Source: Beijerinckiaceae bacterium (GTDB taxonomy: Bacteria > Pseudomonadota > Alphaproteobacteria > Rhizobiales > Beijerinckiaceae). Taken from it: a DNA stretch of 64,000 nt. This document shows, piece after piece, positions 17,828-27,980 of the stretch. Made by a program: the position numbers and the translations under genes. Location: positions 87,325 through 151,324 of the forward strand of contig CANJNI010000006.1 of NCBI GenBank assembly GCA_947475995.1, given 5' to 3'. Position 1 is the stretch's first letter; every line of letters begins with the position of its first letter. The notes below the pieces were generated by a model. That model was not told where the DNA came from. It saw nothing but the letters and a program-made list of their open reading frames with translations, and made no database searches.

Positions 17828-19966
17828 TTATTTCGCCAGCGGATCAGGCCGCAACTGGAAGTGCGCTGCGAGCGGCTTCGTGCCCTTGCCGCCCTCGATC
17901 AGCCAGGGCGTGCGGTCTCCATTGGTGGTCCAGAGGCCGCGGCCTTTCCAGCCGGCGTTCGGATCGTCGATCCGCCCGTCGAAGCCTTTCGCGTAAAAGC
18001 CCATCGGGTAAGGCACGCGCAGCACGACCATCTTGCCGTCCTTAAGGGCCACAAGGCCGTCGTTGAGATTGCCGGTCGACATGGGGACGTTTTCGCCCAG
18101 GCCGAATGTGTTGTGCTGATCGACCCAGGTGTAATAGCTCGATTCTGCGCTGTTATCGCCGATCCCCTCGAAGCCGGGGCCGGGATATTTGTGCAGCGTC
18201 CAGCCTTCCGGGCAATGATCGCCGAGCGCCTTCGGACCATTCAGCGGGCCCTTGCATTTGGACCGGTCAAAGGCCCCCAGATGTCCGCTCGCGAGCGAAA
18301 CCCAGACGACGCCGTTCTTGTCGATGTCGCCGCCGCGCACGCCAAAGCCGGGCGCGGGGACGTTGTAGACTTCCGCCAGCGCAGTCTCGGGCGGATTGGA
18401 ACCCGGATCAAGCCGCACGACCGCACCCGGATTGGAGCGTGACGCGCCCCATATCGAGCCATCCTTCGTGTGCGGCATCACCGCATAGAAGCCCGCCACG
18501 ACGCGCTTGTCCTTTGTCGGATCGACCGGCTGGTTGGGCTCGACATAATCGTCGCGCTTGCCGTTGCCGTTCGTGTCGAGCACAAGCGCCGTCCAGCCCT
18601 GCGCCTTCTGGATATCTCCGGTCTCCTCCAGAAGTTTGGTGTTGATCCAGCCGACAACCTGTCCGCCGCCGCTTGTCCACAAGGTGTTGTTCGCGTCGTA
18701 GCCGAACTGCAAATGGTGCGTGCCGAAGCAGGTCTGAAAGGCCGTGTATTTCTGCGTTTTCGGATCATACATGGTGATCCGGCGGGCGGAGGAATCGAGC
18801 GGGAACAGCTTCGCGGACGGGTGAGCCGAGCCCTTGCGGCAGAAGTCCGGATTCTCGGGCTTGTGTCCGGTGGCGGAAAGCCACAGGCGGCCCTTCTCGT
18901 CGAACATCGAATTGTGATTGTTGCCGTGCGTATCCCAGATCTTTTCCTCGCCCCAATAGGCCGAGGGCATCAGTGGATCTTTCGAGGCTGCGTGACCGGG
19001 GCCGAGCGCTTCGGGCGTGCCGGGCTCGTAGGTCATCATGAAGGAACTCTCGGCATTCTTCACGGGATCGAGAGTCGGAATCCTGTCGGTCGAATATTCG
19101 GGCGAGCCGTAGAGCGGGCCATAGCCGTTGACGGTCGGGTTGCGGCGGTCGCTGGAAATCAGGTCGTGCAGATATTGCTTTTCGTTCATCCAGTCGCGCA
19201 ACGTAACGACGATATTGCGCTCCTCGCCTTGCGGGCGCTGCGGTTTCGTCTTTGGCAATTCTCCCGCGGCGATCCGTCGTGTCCAATCGGCAAAATATTT
19301 CAGGGGCTCCGCATTCAACTGGCCCGCGACGATGTTGACCATGCTTTCGCCGCCCTGGCCCGACTGGATGCGCCGCATCCAGGCGTCCTCGTGCGTCGGC
19401 AAGTTGCTGAAGGCAGGCGGGAATGTGCGGGTCGAAAGTTGCCCGAGCTGGTGACAGCCCACGCAACCATTGTTCTTCATCAGGTTGATCCAGTCGGACT
19501 GCTTGATGTTCTTGGGAATATCCCCGGTTCCGCCGAACTGGTCGGCCCCCGGCATCCTGAGCATCGAATACCAGTAGATCGCGGGATAATAATGCGCCGC
19601 TGCGGCTTCACTGGGTGCGGGCTTCGCCGAGATCTGAACGGTCTTGCCGGGCTCGACCTTCTGCTTGTCGGAGTCGACAAGTCCATAGCCGCGCGCCCAG
19701 ACGTCATAGGCGCCCTTGGGAAGATCCGGCAGGACGAAGCGGCCCTGATCGTCCGTGACGACCATCTTGATGTAGCGCATCGGAAGCCGCGTCTCGGCGA
19801 TCACCCAGACGCCCGCCTCTGGCCCGTTGGGTCCGCGCACGACGCCGCCGATGTCGTCGGAATCAATGGCAGGCGCTTCCTGCGCGCGCAGCGAATGACT
19901 TGCAGACAGCGCCATTGCGGCGCCCGCAATTGCTCTCATGCTTCGACGGAATCCAGCTTTCTTCAT
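17828..19966 (-). CDS. exported carboxypeptidase-regulatory-like / haem c / beta-propeller protein
   Basis: 712 aa. A signal peptide (RRSMRAIAGAAMALSASHSLRAQ) precedes a carboxypeptidase-regulatory-like beta-sandwich at about 35-95 (GGVVRGPNGPEAGVWVIAE, DDQGRFVLPDLPKGAYDVWARGYG), then a single haem c site CVGCHQ near residue 165, then a long propeller-like region with repeated short blocks (IWDTHGNNHNSMFDEKGRLWLSA, LDTNGNGKRDDYV, GDIDKNGVVWVSLASGHL) similar to Vgb/SMP-30-type proteins. It should be a periplasmic redox-linked or sugar/lactone-binding protein. It is the last minus-strand gene after the dehydratase pair (103 bp gap), so it may be co-expressed. Function not known. Confidence 0.7.
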   Translation of the reverse strand: MKKAGFRRSMRAIAGAAMALSASHSLRAQEAPAIDSDDIGGVVRGPNGPEAGVWVIAETRLPMRYIKMVVTDDQGRFVLPDLPKGAYDVWARGYGLVDSDKQKVEPGKTVQISAKPAPSEAAAAHYYPAIYWYSMLRMPGADQFGGTGDIPKNIKQSDWINLMKNNGCVGCHQLGQLSTRTFPPAFSNLPTHEDAWMRRIQSGQGGESMVNIVAGQLNAEPLKYFADWTRRIAAGELPKTKPQRPQGEERNIVVTLRDWMNEKQYLHDLISSDRRNPTVNGYGPLYGSPEYSTDRIPTLDPVKNAESSFMMTYEPGTPEALGPGHAASKDPLMPSAYWGEEKIWDTHGNNHNSMFDEKGRLWLSATGHKPENPDFCRKGSAHPSAKLFPLDSSARRITMYDPKTQKYTAFQTCFGTHHLQFGYDANNTLWTSGGGQVVGWINTKLLEETGDIQKAQGWTALVLDTNGNGKRDDYVEPNQPVDPTKDKRVVAGFYAVMPHTKDGSIWGASRSNPGAVVRLDPGSNPPETALAEVYNVPAPGFGVRGGDIDKNGVVWVSLASGHLGAFDRSKCKGPLNGPKALGDHCPEGWTLHKYPGPGFEGIGDNSAESSYYTWVDQHNTFGLGENVPMSTGNLNDGLVALKDGKMVVLRVPYPMGFYAKGFDGRIDDPNAGWKGRGLWTTNGDRTPWLIEGGKGTKPLAAHFQLRPDPLAK

Positions 19967-20069: not shown

Positions 20070-21386
20070 TCAGGCGTAGATGTTCTTCTTCGCCTTGGAG
20101 GGGAGGACGCGCTGTTCGATGAAGTTGCTGACGAGCGCCCGCATTTTCTGCTCGTCCCATGTGTTTCCGTCTACGGCGTCCACCGGGAAGTCGAGCACCG
20201 GAATGCCGGCCTCCTCAAGAGCCTGATTGACTGTCTTGACGCCCCACCAGCCGGCGATGGACAGGCCGCCGTCGACGCGATGCGTGCGGGCTTCCTCGAT
20301 CGCCCATGCGCTGCCGAGCCCCGGAATGTGCATCTGTTCCGACATGGTGACATAGCGGCTGGCGAGGGCGCGGATCGGGTCGCGGCCGCCGTAACGGATG
20401 TAGCCATCGCTGGCGATGGACAGATAATTGGAGCGCACGAAGACCGCGCCGTACTTCTCTTCGAATTCGGTGAAGAAATCGAGGTTCTGCCAGAGGCCCT
20501 GTCCGACATACATCAGCCGGATCTGCTCGTTGGGGCAGGCCCACATCTGGTTGTCGGCGCGGTGCTTGATCTCGTCGCGGAAAGCGCGCGCCTGCTGGTA
20601 AGCCCATTCGGTGCCGCGATGCCACTGGATGCCCATCACCTGTCCCATCACTTCGCCAAGTCGTGCGGGAAGCTTCGGGGCGGTCTCGATGATGGTGCGG
20701 ATTTCATGGAAGTACTCTTCCTGCGCGTTCACCCGATTGATGATCTCGCGCAGGCGGTCGTAATCGAGTTTCTTGCCCGCGACCTTTTCGGCGGCCGCGA
20801 TGAGATCCTGATATTGGGCGGCGAGCGCGTCGATGCGATAGTCGCCGTCGAGATCTTCCCACTGCCAGCGCGACATTTTCCACCACTCGGGCGTGGGACG
20901 GTCCAGCACCGGCTGTTCGATGGGAATGAAGGGCGCGCCCGAAATCGCCGACATGACCTCGGCGCTGCGCTCATTGATCGAGGTGCAGAGCAGCGAAGGC
21001 ATCGGCAGGCCGCCCCACGGCTTGTCGGGATTTTCCTCGTCGAGCATCACCGCGAGAGTGAGCGCCGCATAGCGACTGAGATTGCGATGGTAGCCGCACT
21101 TGTCGAGAAAGTTCGAATAATAGCCCGACTGACGTTTGGCGGCCACGAGGCCCGAATACCAGACGTCCGTGATGAACGGGATGTCGAGCGCTTCGAGAAT
21201 TTCGTGCGGCACGAGTGCGCCCACAACCGCATAGGGCTGGCCGCCCTGGAACACGTCCTTGCGCAGGCCCTCGAACCATTCGCGCTGATAGGCCCGCAAG
21301 GTATGGCTCACCTTGAGTTGCGTGAGCGATTCATGTTTGCGCTTTGCTTCTTCACGGGCCTTGGCGGCGTCAGTGGGAGCGCTCAT
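20070..21386 (-). CDS. 2-hydroxyacyl-CoA dehydratase / benzoyl-CoA reductase-type subunit (large)
   Basis: 438 aa from ATG 21386, preceded by an ideal AAGGAGG and overlapping the upstream stop as ATGA; the longer track ORF is not used. The fold signature is that of HgdB/BcrBC proteins: VVGALVPHEILEALDIPF, then a Cys in DKCGYHRNLSRY (C97), a second in SLLCTSINE (C134), and IRLMYVGQGLWQNL before the second Rossmann half. Two Cys match the usual Fe-S ligand positions, but the C-terminal half has no Cys at the expected third site; C284 lies just before the IRLMYVG strand. In known systems the enzyme dehydrates (R)-2-hydroxyacyl-CoA radically and needs an ATPase activator, not seen here. Confidence 0.75.
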   Translation of the reverse strand: MSAPTDAAKAREEAKRKHESLTQLKVSHTLRAYQREWFEGLRKDVFQGGQPYAVVGALVPHEILEALDIPFITDVWYSGLVAAKRQSGYYSNFLDKCGYHRNLSRYAALTLAVMLDEENPDKPWGGLPMPSLLCTSINERSAEVMSAISGAPFIPIEQPVLDRPTPEWWKMSRWQWEDLDGDYRIDALAAQYQDLIAAAEKVAGKKLDYDRLREIINRVNAQEEYFHEIRTIIETAPKLPARLGEVMGQVMGIQWHRGTEWAYQQARAFRDEIKHRADNQMWACPNEQIRLMYVGQGLWQNLDFFTEFEEKYGAVFVRSNYLSIASDGYIRYGGRDPIRALASRYVTMSEQMHIPGLGSAWAIEEARTHRVDGGLSIAGWWGVKTVNQALEEAGIPVLDFPVDAVDGNTWDEQKMRALVSNFIEQRVLPSKAKKNIYA

Positions 21387-22537
21387 CGGGCGGCCTCCTT
21401 GCGGCCGGGGATGCCGGCAAAAAACGGTTCGAGTTCGGATGCGATGGCAGAGCGGCCCTTGTCGCGCAGGGCGTCGTGGAACAGGAGCTGGACCGGCTTG
21501 CCCATGTCGCGGAAGGTCTTCGCAAGGCGCGGCGTGTCCCAGCCGAGCATACGGTCGCTGGGGGGGATGTACATGACGATGGCGTCGATATCGCTGCGCG
21601 CAGCTTGCTCCATCATCCATGTCTCGCGCGCGGCGGGCGGCCAGACGCCGGTTGTCGGCACGTCGCTCCAGTATTTGTCGAGGATGGCCTGCAGCGGATC
21701 GAGCTTCGTTGAAATGTCGTCGCCTGCGGCGCGTGCGCCCCAGGTGTCATCCTCGGCCACCACATTGGCTCCGGCCGCTTCGATCAATTGATGGACGTTG
21801 GTGTGGCCGAGCGGCTCGGCGGTGATGAGCAGCACATTGTGTCGCGCCGAAAGGGCGGGGCCGGCGGCTGCTTCGGAGATGAAGGATGCGAGCGCCTGCG
21901 CATAAGACTGCGGGTCCATGAAGTAACCTGCGCCGATGGCCTGCATGGCTTCGACGCCGCCGACCGTCCCGGTGGCGCGCAGATTGCCGAGCCGGCGCTG
22001 CAAGGCGCGCGTGCTGTTCGTCGTCTCGATGGCGGCCACCAGCGCGGCGTCGTCGACCTTTGCGGCGATGCGTCCGATGCGTTTCACGAGATCGCGGATA
22101 CGGTCCTCGTTATAGACGCGCACGGCTTCGCGCTGGCTTTGCATCAGATCGTAGATGGCAAAGGGCGGCATTTTCGGCGCGCGGCCGAGACGATAGATTT
22201 CCTTCAGGAAATAATAGAGCTTGTCGTAGGGGCGCGAGAGCACGAGCAGATCGAGAAACTCGAAATCTCCGTCCACACCAGCCTCGAACAAGGTTCGTGT
22301 TTCGGGCGGCAGCTCAGGATCGACATAGATGTCGGCGACCGGCGTCTTGCGGTCGAGATCGGCGGTGATCAAGATCGGCACTGCGCCCGCAGCCATGATG
22401 AGTTCCGTCGGGACCGTGTGGCCAATGCGGCCGATCACCTTGCGCCCTGCGGCGTGAGCGGCACGCGCGGCTTCCTGCCGATGCGCATAATGGTGCGCGA
22501 GCGTCTGGAACGCCGCTCCGCGTTGAGGTTTTTGCAT
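21383..22537 (-). CDS. 2-hydroxyacyl-CoA dehydratase-type subunit (small), entirely cysteine-free
   Basis: 384 aa. It begins like HgdA/HgdB subunits (AAHAAGRKVIGRIGHTVPTELIMAAGAVPILI) and continues with FLDLLVLSRPYDKLYYFLKEI and VLLITAEPLGHTNVHQLIEAAGANVV, matching the two-Rossmann architecture. No Cys occurs anywhere in the translation, so it cannot bind a [4Fe-4S] cluster through cysteine. TADLDRKTPVADIYV occupies the place of the first Cys region. Start ATG 22537 overlaps the CoA-transferase stop by one base (TAATG) and its own stop overlaps the large subunit start (ATGA), so three proteins are translated in series. Confidence 0.75.
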   Translation of the reverse strand: MQKPQRGAAFQTLAHHYAHRQEAARAAHAAGRKVIGRIGHTVPTELIMAAGAVPILITADLDRKTPVADIYVDPELPPETRTLFEAGVDGDFEFLDLLVLSRPYDKLYYFLKEIYRLGRAPKMPPFAIYDLMQSQREAVRVYNEDRIRDLVKRIGRIAAKVDDAALVAAIETTNSTRALQRRLGNLRATGTVGGVEAMQAIGAGYFMDPQSYAQALASFISEAAAGPALSARHNVLLITAEPLGHTNVHQLIEAAGANVVAEDDTWGARAAGDDISTKLDPLQAILDKYWSDVPTTGVWPPAARETWMMEQAARSDIDAIVMYIPPSDRMLGWDTPRLAKTFRDMGKPVQLLFHDALRDKGRSAIASELEPFFAGIPGRKEAAR

Positions 22538-23718
22538 TAGACCACTCCAGCCGCTTTCAGGCGTTCTGTTTCATCTGCGCTGTAGCCGAGTTCGGCCAGC
22601 ACTTCATTCGTATGTTCGCCGAGTTCGGGCAGGCGCTTTTCGAGAGCGGGACCATCGGCATCGGCCACGAAGCCCGCGTTCATCAGACGCATGGCCTTGC
22701 CATCGGCGGTGGCGCTGTCCTGCAACATGCGTCGCTCGCGCAGGGATGGCATGGACAGAAGTTCGCCGGATGTGCGGACTTTTGCGGCGGGCGCGCCGGC
22801 CTCCATCAAGGCCCTTTCGAGATCGCTCGCCTTCAGCGGCGCGATGCGGCGCGACAGTTCGGCGCGCAATTCATCCTTGTTGGCGAGACGCGACGCGGGC
22901 TTTTCATAGCGCGGGTCCTTGATCAGTTCGGGAGCGCCGAGCACGCCGCACAGGGCTTCCCAATGGTTCTGGAAATTGCCGCTGAGCCACAGCCATCCAT
23001 CGGTGGTGCGGAAAGGTCCGACCGTGGGGCGATCCTGCACGATCGGTTGCGTCGCCTTGATGCGGTCGCCGCTGATCATTTGGCGCACGAGGCCGGGCCC
23101 CATGAGGACGAGCGTTGCGTCCAGCATGGCGACGTCGAGATGCTGCCCCTCGCCGGTGCGTTCGCGTCGGATGAGCGCCTGGAGGATCGCCGAATAAGCC
23201 ACGAAGCCACTGAAACAATCGATGCTGAAGCCGCGACCCTGCGAGGGAATGTCGTTGTCTTCGCCGCTCCACGCCATCCCGGTCATGGCCTGAATGGTAT
23301 GGTCATAGGCGGGCCATCTGGCCATCTCGCCGCCCTGTCCGAAGCCGGTGATGCTGCAGGTGATGAGGCGCGGATTCAGCGCGCGCAGATCCTCATGGCC
23401 GAGGCCTATTTCGGTGAGCGCGCCGGGGCGCTGGTTCTCCACCATGACGTCGGCCGTCATCGCGAGTGCGCGCACGATGGACTGGCCTTCGGGGCTCTTG
23501 AGATTGACGGTGATGGAGCGCTTGCCGGCATTCACCGCCGCAAAGGCAGATCCGACATTCCAGCCCGGCTCCTTGATGAATTCGCGGAAATCATCGCCGA
23601 TGCCGGGACGCTCGACCTTGACGACGTCCGCGCCCAGAAGGCCCAGATGGTAGGTGCAGAAAGGCCCGGCGAGCGCATGGGTCAGATCGAGAATTCGCAG
23701 GCCTTCGAGCGCCTTCAT
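22537..23718 (-). CDS. class III CoA-transferase (CaiB/BaiF family)
   Basis: 393 aa, normal for the family. It opens MKALEGLRILDLTHALAGPFCTYHLG with GADVVKVERPGIGDDFR, and carries the catalytic-Asp region RLITCSITGFGQGG...YDHTIQAMTG, plus SRRIAPLKASDLERALMEAGAPAAKV near the end. It moves CoA between acids, here presumably activating the imported acid for the downstream dehydratase subunits, with which it is translationally coupled. This gene order parallels HadA-HadBC of clostridial 2-hydroxyacid pathways but with no activator gene. The ABC binding protein is 58 bp upstream. Confidence 0.88.
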   Translation of the reverse strand: MKALEGLRILDLTHALAGPFCTYHLGLLGADVVKVERPGIGDDFREFIKEPGWNVGSAFAAVNAGKRSITVNLKSPEGQSIVRALAMTADVMVENQRPGALTEIGLGHEDLRALNPRLITCSITGFGQGGEMARWPAYDHTIQAMTGMAWSGEDNDIPSQGRGFSIDCFSGFVAYSAILQALIRRERTGEGQHLDVAMLDATLVLMGPGLVRQMISGDRIKATQPIVQDRPTVGPFRTTDGWLWLSGNFQNHWEALCGVLGAPELIKDPRYEKPASRLANKDELRAELSRRIAPLKASDLERALMEAGAPAAKVRTSGELLSMPSLRERRMLQDSATADGKAMRLMNAGFVADADGPALEKRLPELGEHTNEVLAELGYSADETERLKAAGVV

Positions 23719-23776: not shown

Positions 23777-24796
23777 TCAGTTGGCGCCGAGCAATTGCAC
23801 GAGGCCGGGGATTTTTTCCTTGATGGTCCGGAAGTCGGGCGTCGCCATCTGGGGGAGCGGCAGCGTGCCGGGCACACCGTTGATCGGCGAGAAACCGTCC
23901 TTGTTAAGCACGGCCTGCCCGTCGACGCTCAGCGTAAAGGCGGCGAGCAACCTGGCGATATTCGGATGCGGGGCCTTCTGCATGATCATCATGCTGGTGT
24001 CGGAAGAGATCGTCGGCTGCGGGAAAATCTCGCCGATCGGCGCGCCCTTATCGAGCAGACCCACGACGACCTGATGGATGCCGGGCGCGTAGATTGCCTT
24101 TGCGCCGGCCGCAATCTGCTGAATGCCCGGAACCGCGCTCGGCGAGAGCGTCGCGTTCTGGCCGAGCGCCTTGATGAAGCCCTCCCCATAGGTGTCGCGC
24201 ATCAGCACATGCCAGAGGGCAGGCGAGCCGCCGACGCGCGGGTCGATGGTCAGCACGCGGCCCTTCCACTTCGGGTCGATCAGGTCCTGCCACGTCTTCG
24301 GCGGGTCCTTGATCTGGTCCTTGTTGTAGATCAGCGAATAGGGAATGTGCGAAACGATCACCGAGAACGGCGTCTTCACATGCGCATAGGGAGCCAGACC
24401 CGGCACGATATCGATGGAGGCGAACATGCCCTTGGCGTGCATCTGCTCCTGCAGCAACTTATCGGTGTCCAGGACGACATCCGCGACCGGGCTGCCGCTT
24501 TCGTGCTCGGAAAGAAGACGTTGGCCGAGCGCGCCGGAGATGAGGCGCGTCACCTCCAGTTCGATGCCGTACTTTTCCTTGAACTTGGCCACGAAGGCCT
24601 GAATGATCGCCGGATCGGTGACGGCATAGAGCGAGCCCTTGCCTTCCTTCTTGGCGGCCTCGATCAACGCCGCGTCGACCTGCTGGGCGGAGGCGATGGA
24701 GGGCAGCATGGCGGCGGCCATTGCCGCACCCGCAACCTGCTTGATGAATTTCCGGCGCGTCGTCCGGCCTTTTAGCATTCTGGTCATCTGTTTCAT
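23777..24796 (-). CDS. ABC-type extracellular solute-binding protein family 1 (FbpA/iron-type), Tat-exported
   Basis: 339 aa. The N-terminus holds TTRRKFIKQVAGAAMAAAMLPSIASAQQ, a twin-arginine signal. The mature protein has the FbpA-like order: LIEAAKKEGKGSLYAVTDPAIIQAFVAKF, VADVVLDTD, YSLIYNKDQIKDPPKTWQDLIDPKWKGR and LSVDGQAVLNKDGFSPI. This subfamily binds ferric iron, but also organic acids, phosphonates and thiamine; the tyrosine pair typical of iron binders is not seen, so an organic ligand is more likely. AGGAAGGGG precedes ATG 24796. It lies between the permease (25 bp upstream) and the CoA-transferase. Confidence 0.85.
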   Translation of the reverse strand: MKQMTRMLKGRTTRRKFIKQVAGAAMAAAMLPSIASAQQVDAALIEAAKKEGKGSLYAVTDPAIIQAFVAKFKEKYGIELEVTRLISGALGQRLLSEHESGSPVADVVLDTDKLLQEQMHAKGMFASIDIVPGLAPYAHVKTPFSVIVSHIPYSLIYNKDQIKDPPKTWQDLIDPKWKGRVLTIDPRVGGSPALWHVLMRDTYGEGFIKALGQNATLSPSAVPGIQQIAAGAKAIYAPGIHQVVVGLLDKGAPIGEIFPQPTISSDTSMMIMQKAPHPNIARLLAAFTLSVDGQAVLNKDGFSPINGVPGTLPLPQMATPDFRTIKEKIPGLVQLLGAN

Positions 24797-24821: not shown

Positions 24822-26519
24822 TCAGCTCATTCTTGCAGAGTATCGCGAAAAGAAAAGCATGATGGCGACGCCGACGGACGTTACCGCCGTCACCACGATC
24901 GACATGGCGGCAAGCTGCGGAAACGATCCGAAAACCCACAGTTCCGTCATGACGCGGCCGATGACCGGATTGCGGGCTCCGCCCAGCAGGCTCGACGCAG
25001 TGACTTCGCCTGCCGTGTGAATGAAAACGATGATCCAGCCCGCCACCAGCCCCGGAACCGAAAGCGGCAGAAGCACGCGCCAGAATGTGCGGCCGGGTCC
25101 TGCGCCGGCGATCCGGGAGGCTTCGGACAGGTCGATCCCGATGCCGGACGCAGCCGCCGCCGCCGCACGCGCCGCGAAGGGCAGGGCCATCGCCAGATAA
25201 GCGAGGAAGAGGATCGTCAATGTGCCGTAGAACTGGAAAGGTTTGGGGGTGAAGGTGATCAGGAACGCGATGCCGATCACCGTATGCGGCAAGGTTGCCG
25301 GAAGGCTCATCACGATATCGGCCCAGCGGCTGCTCGCGCCTTTCTGCTGGCGGGCCTGCAAGGTCACCAGCGCGGCGATCAGCACCGCCACCGTCGCGAC
25401 GGCCGCTCCCAGTGAAAAGCTGGTGACGAAGGCGCGGCTTGTGGGTCCGTTTTCGAACAGCACGAAGCGATAATTGGCGAGACTGAGCTGGTTCCAGCGC
25501 ACGATCGGCGTCCAGAAGGATTGCAGCGAGACCAGAATGAGCCCCAGCACCGGCAGGACGGACGTCGAGACCAGATAGGCGATTGCGAGAATTTTCGCCG
25601 GGATGCGCAAACGTCCCAGTCTTATGCGACCGGCGCGCGCGCCGCGTCCGCCTGTCACCGCATTGCGGTCTCCCGGCGCCAGATAGCGCTGCGCCAGAAG
25701 CAGCGATTGCACGACCGCCACCATGGCGGCGCTCAGCAGAAGTCCGGCTGCGGTCTGCGGCGGGAATTGCTCGAAGAGCCGATAGATATAGACCGAAATC
25801 ACATCCATGCGGGCCGCCGTGCCGAGCACGATCGGCACCGAGAACAGCCCGATGCCGGCGATGATCGCCAGCAGCGACGCCGACGCAATGGCCGGGCGTA
25901 TGGCGGGCAGCGTTACTCGCAACATGGTGCGAACAGGAGGAGCGCCGCTGACGCGCGAGGCTTCCTCCAGAGCGGAATCGAGTCCGCGCAGGGCCGCCGA
26001 AACGACGAGATAGACGTAGGGCGTCAGATAGAGGCCCGTGATGGCCATGAGGCCGGCGGGCGTATAGATGTTCAGCGGGCCGGTGAAGGACTCGACGCCC
26101 ACCAGCCCCAGCAGCCAGCGCAGAAAGCTGTTGCCGAATCCGACATTCGGATCGAGCAGGATCGCCCAGCCGATGACTCCCGCGATGGGCGGCACGATCA
26201 TCGGCGCGAGCGGCAGCAGTTCGCCGGCAGCTCCCAGATCGCCGTCCGTGCGCTCATTGATGAAGGCCAGCAGGGAGCCGATGATGGTCGCGATAAAGGC
26301 TCCGCCCATCACGATGATGGCGGTGTTGAACATCACGCGGCCTAGCGCCCCGGAGGCAAAGGCCGCAGTGAGTTCCTTCAGGCCTGCGGGCGCTTCGCCG
26401 ATCGTGCGCCAGATGGTCACCCCGAACGGAAAGATCAGAAAAACCGCGACGAGCGCCACAACGCCCATCACGAGGGGCGCGAAAAGCGGCTTGCGCCGGA
26501 CTGGGCGGGAGGCGCTCAT
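24822..26519 (-). CDS. ABC transporter permease, fused double-domain (FbpB/PotBC-type)
   Basis: 565 aa from ATG 26519, which overlaps the ATPase stop (TAATG). Two permease halves of about 6 TM each are joined, as in FbpB. Each half has an EAA loop: LDSALEEASRVSGAPPVRTMLRVTLPAIRPAI near residue 200 and GIDLSEASRIAGAGPGRTFWRVLLPLSVPGL near 480. Both EAA loops would contact the ATPase. With the ATPase and binding protein it makes a complete importer in the inner membrane. The ORF as given by the track runs upstream without homology. Confidence 0.92.
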   Translation of the reverse strand: MSASRPVRRKPLFAPLVMGVVALVAVFLIFPFGVTIWRTIGEAPAGLKELTAAFASGALGRVMFNTAIIVMGGAFIATIIGSLLAFINERTDGDLGAAGELLPLAPMIVPPIAGVIGWAILLDPNVGFGNSFLRWLLGLVGVESFTGPLNIYTPAGLMAITGLYLTPYVYLVVSAALRGLDSALEEASRVSGAPPVRTMLRVTLPAIRPAIASASLLAIIAGIGLFSVPIVLGTAARMDVISVYIYRLFEQFPPQTAAGLLLSAAMVAVVQSLLLAQRYLAPGDRNAVTGGRGARAGRIRLGRLRIPAKILAIAYLVSTSVLPVLGLILVSLQSFWTPIVRWNQLSLANYRFVLFENGPTSRAFVTSFSLGAAVATVAVLIAALVTLQARQQKGASSRWADIVMSLPATLPHTVIGIAFLITFTPKPFQFYGTLTILFLAYLAMALPFAARAAAAAASGIGIDLSEASRIAGAGPGRTFWRVLLPLSVPGLVAGWIIVFIHTAGEVTASSLLGGARNPVIGRVMTELWVFGSFPQLAAMSIVVTAVTSVGVAIMLFFSRYSARMS

Positions 26520-27673
26520 TATCCTTGCGCCAGCGGAAAGATCATGGTGCGCGCCTTGGGGAAGGACACCGTCAGATTCTCCCCGTGCGGATGACGTTCG
26601 CCGCCGATCGCAATGGCGACTATGAGCTTGTCGGCAACGCGCAGCACATGTTCGAAGGTGGAGCCCTGAAACAGGGATCTTTCGAGAACTGCGCTCACCG
26701 TATTGTGCGTCGCGGGCGCGGCCCCGTCGACAGCAAGGCCGCATTGCTCTGGCCGGAACATGACGGCGACCTTCTGGCCGATGGTCGCAACACCGGCACC
26801 GGCCGAGCCCGCAATGACTCCGGCGGGCGTCGAGACGACACATGTCCTGCCGTCAAGCGCGGTGACTTCGCCCTGCATTTCGTTGGCGCTGCCGATGAAG
26901 TCCGCCACGTAGCGGGAGGCGGGCGCATCATAGATCTCTTCGGGCGTGCCGATCTGGGCGATCTTTCCCACTTCCATCACGGCGATCCGGTCTGCCAGGG
27001 CGAGAGCCTCGCTCTGGTCATGCGTGACGTAAAGACTCGAAAAGCCGATTTCCTGCTGGAGCGCGACGAGTTCGATCCGCAGGCGCGCGCGCACCTTCGC
27101 GTCGAGATTGGAGAGTGGTTCATCGAACAGCACGAGGCCGCCGGTGGAGACGAGGGCGCGGGCGAGCGCCACGCGCTGCTGCTGGCCGCCGGACAATTGT
27201 CCCGGGAAGGATTGGGACAGATGGGCAAGCCCGACGCGGTCCAGCGCCTGCGTGACGCGCGGGCGCAGCTCAGCATCCTTCACGCGTTGATTTCGCAAGG
27301 GATAGGCGACGTTCTCAAAAACGCTCATATGCGGCCAGAGCGCGTAGGACTGGAACACCATGCCCAGATTGCGCTCTTCCGGCGGAAACCAGATGTCCCG
27401 GCCGGCGGAGGACACGATCTGCCCTTCTATCTGGATATCGCCGCCATCGGGCTGTTCCAGTCCGGCGATGGAGCGCAACAGCGTTGTCTTGCCACAACCT
27501 GAAGGCCCGAGCAGCACGACGAACTCGCCGGGGTGAATATCGATGGACACGCTGTCGAGCGCCGTGTGTTCACCGGCGCGCGTGCGATAACGCTTGGTCA
27601 GATTCTGCACGGAGACGCGCGGCGTCGTCGACGCTGCGCTCTGGCCCGGTTTGGCCGCGTTCTGCTCGCTCAT
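26519..27673 (-). CDS. ABC transporter ATP-binding protein (FbpC/PotA-type with TOBE domain)
   Basis: 384 aa from ATG 27673, preceded by GAGAGGG; TTG 27712 is a weaker start. Motifs: Walker A LLGPSGCGKTTLL, Q-loop VFQSYALWPHM, signature LSGGQQQRVALARAL, Walker B LVLFDEPLSNLDAKVR, switch His VTHDQSEALALADR, and a C-terminal TOBE-like region (VAVMFRPEQCG). It powers the importer and is the first gene of the minus-strand operon running to at least 20070. The organisation ATPase-permease-binding protein-CoA transferase-dehydratases indicates a dedicated uptake-and-activation route. Confidence 0.93.
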   Translation of the reverse strand: MSEQNAAKPGQSAASTTPRVSVQNLTKRYRTRAGEHTALDSVSIDIHPGEFVVLLGPSGCGKTTLLRSIAGLEQPDGGDIQIEGQIVSSAGRDIWFPPEERNLGMVFQSYALWPHMSVFENVAYPLRNQRVKDAELRPRVTQALDRVGLAHLSQSFPGQLSGGQQQRVALARALVSTGGLVLFDEPLSNLDAKVRARLRIELVALQQEIGFSSLYVTHDQSEALALADRIAVMEVGKIAQIGTPEEIYDAPASRYVADFIGSANEMQGEVTALDGRTCVVSTPAGVIAGSAGAGVATIGQKVAVMFRPEQCGLAVDGAAPATHNTVSAVLERSLFQGSTFEHVLRVADKLIVAIAIGGERHPHGENLTVSFPKARTMIFPLAQG

Positions 27674-27980
27674 GCCGGTCGCGTTCCCTCTCGCAACAGG
27701 TTCGGCCGCCAAGCGGCTCCAATTAGTTATGGGCTATATCATTGCCCCGATCCGACCGCTAGTGGGCCCGTTCAGAGAGGTGTTCCGTTGCACGTCCGGA
27801 CGGCGAATTCAATTATCGCGTGTTTGTCGGACCTGCAGCGCGCGTCCGCGAAGTCAATAGTTGCTCGAAACGATATAGCGTTAGTTGTGATGGCTTTTTA
27901 CCGCGAACCTGTTTTGTTCAATTGACAACGTGAATCGACCGCTCCATTTAGCGCTTTGTAGGCAACAATGGGTTTGGTGA
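27674..27980. other. intergenic region upstream of the ABC operon and small wHTH gene
   Basis: About 307 bases without a convincing gene, visibly more AT-rich than its surroundings. It must hold the divergent promoters of the minus-strand ABC operon and the plus-strand small gene. A TTGACA occurs at 27922-27927 but no good -10 follows at the right spacing. No repeat, tRNA or terminator was seen. Confidence 0.5.

Follow-up and report, generated by a model that had tools for sequence, protein, structure and literature searches.

Within a 64,000-nucleotide stretch of a Beijerinckiaceae genome, hereafter the window, three coupled genes encode a family III CoA-transferase and two proteins that we call S and L, with S in the middle (Table 1). 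The stop codon of the CoA-transferase gene overlaps the start of S in a TAATG junction, and the stop of S overlaps the start of L in an ATGA junction; L also has its own AGGAGG site ahead of its start, taken here as the start of the 438-residue form, the alternative 516-residue open reading frame beginning too far upstream. The CoA-transferase matches PF02515 with 337.6 bits, and its catalytic Asp is kept in 114 of 115 sequences. Upstream of the trio lie the solute-binding protein, permease, and ATPase of an ABC importer, the first of which occupies the same place in four related loci (L025, L027, L028, and L057). The exported protein that may be associated with the trio carries a haem-type CVGCH motif and has no Pfam match over the cut-off; a copy with 88% identity follows L in L025, and in that locus only.

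Table 1 Features of the gene trio and its surroundings, with positions in the window.
Feature	Coordinates	Strand	Remarks
S, small subunit, HadC/BzdN-like	21383..22537	minus	384 aa, no Cys; P77, Y104, D328 at ligand positions
L, large subunit (partner of S), HadB/BzdO-like	20070..21386	minus	438 aa; Cys 97, 134, 284
Family III CoA-transferase	22537..23718	minus	393 aa; Asp167 at expected catalytic position
Extracellular solute-binding protein, ABC importer (2-aminoethylphosphonate/Fe type)	23777..24796	minus	TAT-like signal
ABC permease	24822..26843	minus	true start probably further in; homologues 570-580 aa
ABC importer ATPase (PhnT2/PotA type)	26519..27712	minus	
Possible associated gene, 712-aa exported protein	17828..19966	minus	CarboxypepD_reg-like N-terminus; CxxCH motif

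A first-pass annotation had described S, with no strand given, as a 384-residue, Cys-free subunit of the 2-hydroxyacyl-CoA dehydratase type. Both parts of that description hold: read on the minus strand (22537..21383), the frame is intact over 384 codons, the plus-strand frame being interrupted, its translation has a Cys count of zero, and Pfam assigns it to PF06050 with an E-value of 6e-35 (2.5e-30 for L). S aligns to its relatives over the full length and uninterrupted, with 61% identity to the copy in L025. Measured against the same locus, dN/dS is 0.26 for S, 0.07 for L, and 0.12 for the CoA-transferase, and all three genes are under purifying selection. S is 62% identical to its nearest relative, compared with 89% for L, and because it evolves this fast it may be structural only.

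The total absence of Cys is by itself weak evidence, because at the Cys frequency of 0.8% found in 14 window genes a protein of 384 residues would lack Cys with a probability of ~0.045; near relatives of S have zero or one stray Cys. Chance could thus account for the total count, but not for the ligand sites, and the informative finding is that Cys has gone from all three ligand positions. The gene pair resembles an iron-sulfur-dependent enzyme of anaerobes that is sensitive to oxygen. 2-Hydroxyacyl-CoA dehydratases need two [4Fe-4S] clusters, one per subunit with three Cys ligands each, as well as an ATP-driven activase (PMC11574389). In the alignment with HadBC that the annotation had proposed, all six ligand positions of the S-L pair are lost. 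C72, C99, and C325 of HadC correspond to P77, Y104, and D328 of S, where the residue at the second position is uncertain by 1-2 columns, S being free of Cys regardless; the three-Cys [4Fe-4S] site of the HadC-type subunit is therefore absent. C84, C117, and C346 of HadB correspond in L to S104, a four-residue deletion, and a second deletion, so that the three-Cys [4Fe-4S] site of the HadB-type subunit, in which one iron is open, is missing as well. The annotation had credited the partner with two of the usual Cys positions; this was mistaken, since none of its Cys (97, 134, and 284) falls in a ligand column. Ser37 and Glu55 of HadB, which we take to have catalytic roles, are Ala57 and Val75 in L.

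The activase is also missing. A profile search detected none beside the S-L pairs in any locus of the family; as controls, the same profile detects the classical locus L023, and seed queries detect genuine activases. In the window genome, which is 96% complete, no activase (PF01869, BcrAD_BadFG) scored over the cut-off, and no PF06050 genes apart from S and L were found. In half of the 26 sampled genomes whose L is site-free (13), no PF01869 member exceeds the cut-off, and the other half hold some gene of the BcrAD_BadFG family; where L has the three classical Cys, a PF01869 member occurs in 12 of 13 genomes, never adjoining the pair. Some of these matches may not be activases, because PF01869 also includes N-acetylglucosamine-kinase-like proteins. 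The window genome has three haem-copper oxidase (COX1) genes, so its host is probably an aerobe.

Despite these losses, S and L are predicted to be complete family folds rather than degraded remnants. AlphaFold2 models of each subunit singly, built from family alignments free of plasmid-record rows, reached a pLDDT of 95.4 and pTM of 0.93 for S and a pLDDT of 92.9 and pTM of 0.92 for L. The model of S superimposes on BzdN with Z 39.6 (2.5 A over 365 residues) and on HadC with Z 38.6, and that of L on HadB with Z 39.4 (2.3 A over 384) and on BzdO with Z 37.6.

Searching species genomes with an L profile gave 307 related places, from which we kept 80 loci spanning Pseudomonadota, Acidobacteria, Bacteroidota, Chloroflexota, Actinomycetes, Lachnospiraceae, and others. 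Of 398 genomes drawn from the window's phylum, only 4 carry the gene, one being the window's own, and none of the other genomes sampled from its family does; its nearest counterparts come from a Beijerinckiaceae MAG (90%), a Rhizobiales MAG, and Ramlibacter MAGs (79%). This patchy distribution, together with the pattern of closest copies, suggests horizontal transfer. In the tree, the family forms one side of a branch separating it from the classical pairs, with a support of 96 that is to be read alongside long outgroup branches.

Across this family the small subunit is uniform: none of 75 relatives has a Cys at any of the three ligand columns, where classical rows read CCC, and the third column (S328) is always acidic (Asp in 66, Glu in 9). 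For L we defined the site by five columns, comprising the three classical ligands, a CxxC partner (the column of A107), and a CxC partner; classical large subunits read C.C.C at these columns. In 86 full-length rows the Cys are retained or lost together as a set, with one exception: 48 rows have none, 22 read CCCC., 9 read CCC.C, and 6 read CCCCC. Every L with the classical first two Cys has an additional Cys too, and this residue could occupy the iron site that is left open for substrate in HadB. On the tree, no fewer than four changes are needed at the third Cys and as many at the first two, and the set appears to have been lost several times independently; we infer the direction of change from a root placed by the outgroup. 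The suggestion that a cluster might be held by one subunit through other ligands finds no support in the window pair, but relatives come close to the single-subunit arrangement, in that a set of four or five Cys survives in the HadB-like subunit alone in 37 of the 86 rows.

The Lachnospiraceae offer the clearest case. In Blautia/Oribacterium other residues (N, D, G, V, D) stand in for all five site Cys of L, these subunits being 70-73% identical to sisters in which the Cys remain, and the Cys-keeping and Cys-less operons are alike in having a PucR regulator, a CitMHS transporter, S, L, and the CoA-transferase. Since the Blautia/Oribacterium copies lost all five Cys within a similar operon, the function of the pair does not seem to require the cluster.

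Several further arrangements were seen among the relatives. Close Lachnospiraceae large subunits (L078, L087, L088, L070, and L100 versus L079, L081, and L096) differ by the loss of all five Cys and provide a convenient natural comparison. Two Bacillota MAGs encode natural S-L fusions in one open frame (L068:8621-11311 and L069:8765-11308), in which the S half is without cluster Cys and the L half of L068 reads CCC.C. Eight neighbourhoods (L030, L031, L043, L051, L055, L075, L077, and L092) combine different S-L subtypes, with two or three pairs each, and in L043 and L031 one pair has CCC.C in L and another has lost it.

The conserved residues of L have changed along with the ligands. W76, W168, W176, W255, W261, Y329, R344, H353, and W361 are invariant or nearly so in L and absent from classical pairs; W299 is also conserved, with an aromatic residue in classical rows too. 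The Ser37 position of HadB is Ala in 81 of 86 rows and the Glu55 position is Gln in 60 of 86. These new conserved residues and the replacement of Ser37 and Glu55 argue for an active site that was remodelled rather than one that decayed.

The constant neighbours of S-L pairs are a family III CoA-transferase and importers, the latter varying by lineage among ABC, TRAP, MFS, CitMHS, and Dpp types. CapA-type PF09587 proteins, CocE/S15 hydrolases, TonB receptors, and esterases also recur. Together these neighbours suggest that an organic acid, or one of its esters or amides, is catabolized; we rejected reading a single substrate from them, as the importers differ between lineages. The CapA-type protein (PF09587, 'capsule synthesis') adjoins the pair in ~22 loci, L034-L038, L041, L044, L045, L047, L049, L052, L063, and L109 among them, and may be a pathway hydrolase rather than a capsule gene. 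Clusters in Rhodobacterales/Hyphomicrobiales (L058-L067, L083, L085, and L098) have three or four family III CoA-transferases per S-L pair, and also carry a TRAP importer and a MarR regulator.

Because the pair lacks the ligands in both subunits, the activase, and the Ser37 and Glu55 residues, S-L should not be named a 2-hydroxyacyl-CoA dehydratase and is better placed in a cluster-free sister branch of the superfamily. The same losses speak for the idea, already raised in the first-pass annotation, that the protein has been repurposed. The reading we favour, with a probability of roughly 0.6, is that S-L is a cluster-free, activase-independent heterodimer with a non-redox action on CoA esters supplied by its CoA-transferase. 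The importer would take up an organic acid, the CoA-transferase would convert it to the CoA ester, and the dimer would bind this ester in the old HadB pocket and process it without an iron-sulfur cluster, ATP-driven activase, or ketyl radical, with the new L residues presumably performing the acid-base chemistry of a lyase, hydratase, or hydrolase step. Judging from the tree, the first losses would have been those of the activase and of the relay cluster in S; L would then have gained a fourth Cys (CxxC), filling the open site on the iron to which substrate binds in HadB, and the whole Cys set of L would later have been lost in several lineages, the window's included.

The strongest competitor, still clearly the less probable account, is that S-L is no catalyst at all and either partners the CoA-transferase by binding acyl-CoA or regulates that enzyme. 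An analogous physical association links FldBC with FldA, and the constant CoA-transferase neighbour with overlapping genes, the loss of every known catalytic group, the fast drift of S, and the presence of several CoA-transferases per pair at some loci are all compatible with such a role. The low dN/dS of L and its ~20 invariant residues, which include many new W, Y, and R, are instead what an active site would be expected to show. We consider it rather unlikely that the L of the window pair binds another metal, or holds a cluster through non-Cys ligands, and that redox or radical chemistry persists: relatives retain the Cys set in L, the acidic residue at S328 is universal, and Asp, His, and Glu do ligate clusters in rare cases (PMC11574389), but in the window clade the L segments of the second and third ligands are deleted, the electron-relay subunit is devoid of ligands, and the activase is missing. 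An ordinary activase-dependent dehydratase with one working cluster, the reading implied by pipelines that annotate relatives as '2-hydroxyacyl-CoA dehydratase family protein', is very improbable and was rejected, since alpha-elimination requires both clusters and the activase, C2 dehydration being beyond protein bases (PMC11574389), and all of these are missing from the pair, its locus, and the window genome. Finally, a normal Cys-bearing subunit hidden by a frameshift, misassembly, or pseudogene, the first of which the annotation had itself raised, was looked for and can be dismissed given the uninterrupted full-length homology, the dN/dS and pLDDT of S, the clean junctions on both sides, and the same losses across dozens of independent assemblies.

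The cluster-free heterodimer that we favour belongs to a branch that is widespread and apparently undescribed; a full-text literature search, which largely missed subscription papers, found no description of it, and one candidate article (PMC13101534) treats another gene cluster. On balance, we think that this branch gave up its clusters and activase for a new, oxygen-tolerant, non-redox reaction, and that the large subunits with four or five Cys are surviving intermediates. Low-potential-cluster chemistry driven by ATP-energized electrons has its textbook examples in the 2-hydroxyacyl-CoA dehydratases and class I benzoyl-CoA reductases, and a cluster-free branch with graded intermediates and several independent losses allows one to ask which other catalytic options the scaffold has; it also bears on how a radical enzyme might be turned into an oxygen-tolerant one. 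For this branch the automatic name given to relatives is misleading, and the small subunit is sometimes annotated as 'hypothetical protein'.

Among known systems, the (R)-2-hydroxyisocaproyl-CoA dehydratase HadBC (PDB 3o3m/3o3n/3o3o) resembles S-L in its subunit folds, its PF06050 membership, its CoA-transferase partner, and its pairing of one long with one short subunit, as in the predicted S-L dimer; S-L differs in having lost all six ligand Cys together with Ser37 and Glu55, and in having no activase HadI. The double-cubane-cluster protein (6eno, 7yzm) has the same fold but possesses a double-cubane cluster and its own reductase, and against its family model (NF040772) S scores 77.5 and L 32 bits, with a cut-off of 350. 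The class I benzoyl-CoA reductases BzdNO/MbdON (8s02, 9g87) include the closest solved structure for S, BzdN, and match L with Z 36-38, whereas S-L has no clusters or activase-type subunits, no aromatic-degradation genes were seen in the operon, and scores against the benzoyl-CoA reductase models (TIGR02263, TIGR03190, TIGR03191, and TIGR02260) are 27-54 bits, with cut-offs of 421-487. The phenyllactate dehydratase module, which has been reviewed (PMC11574389), consists of FldABC and FldI. The window operon differs from it in having no FldI-type activase and no cluster ligands, in including an importer, and in the hosts of the site-free branch, which are mostly presumed aerobes with some Lachnospiraceae; like FldABC, it combines a family III CoA-transferase with two PF06050 subunits.
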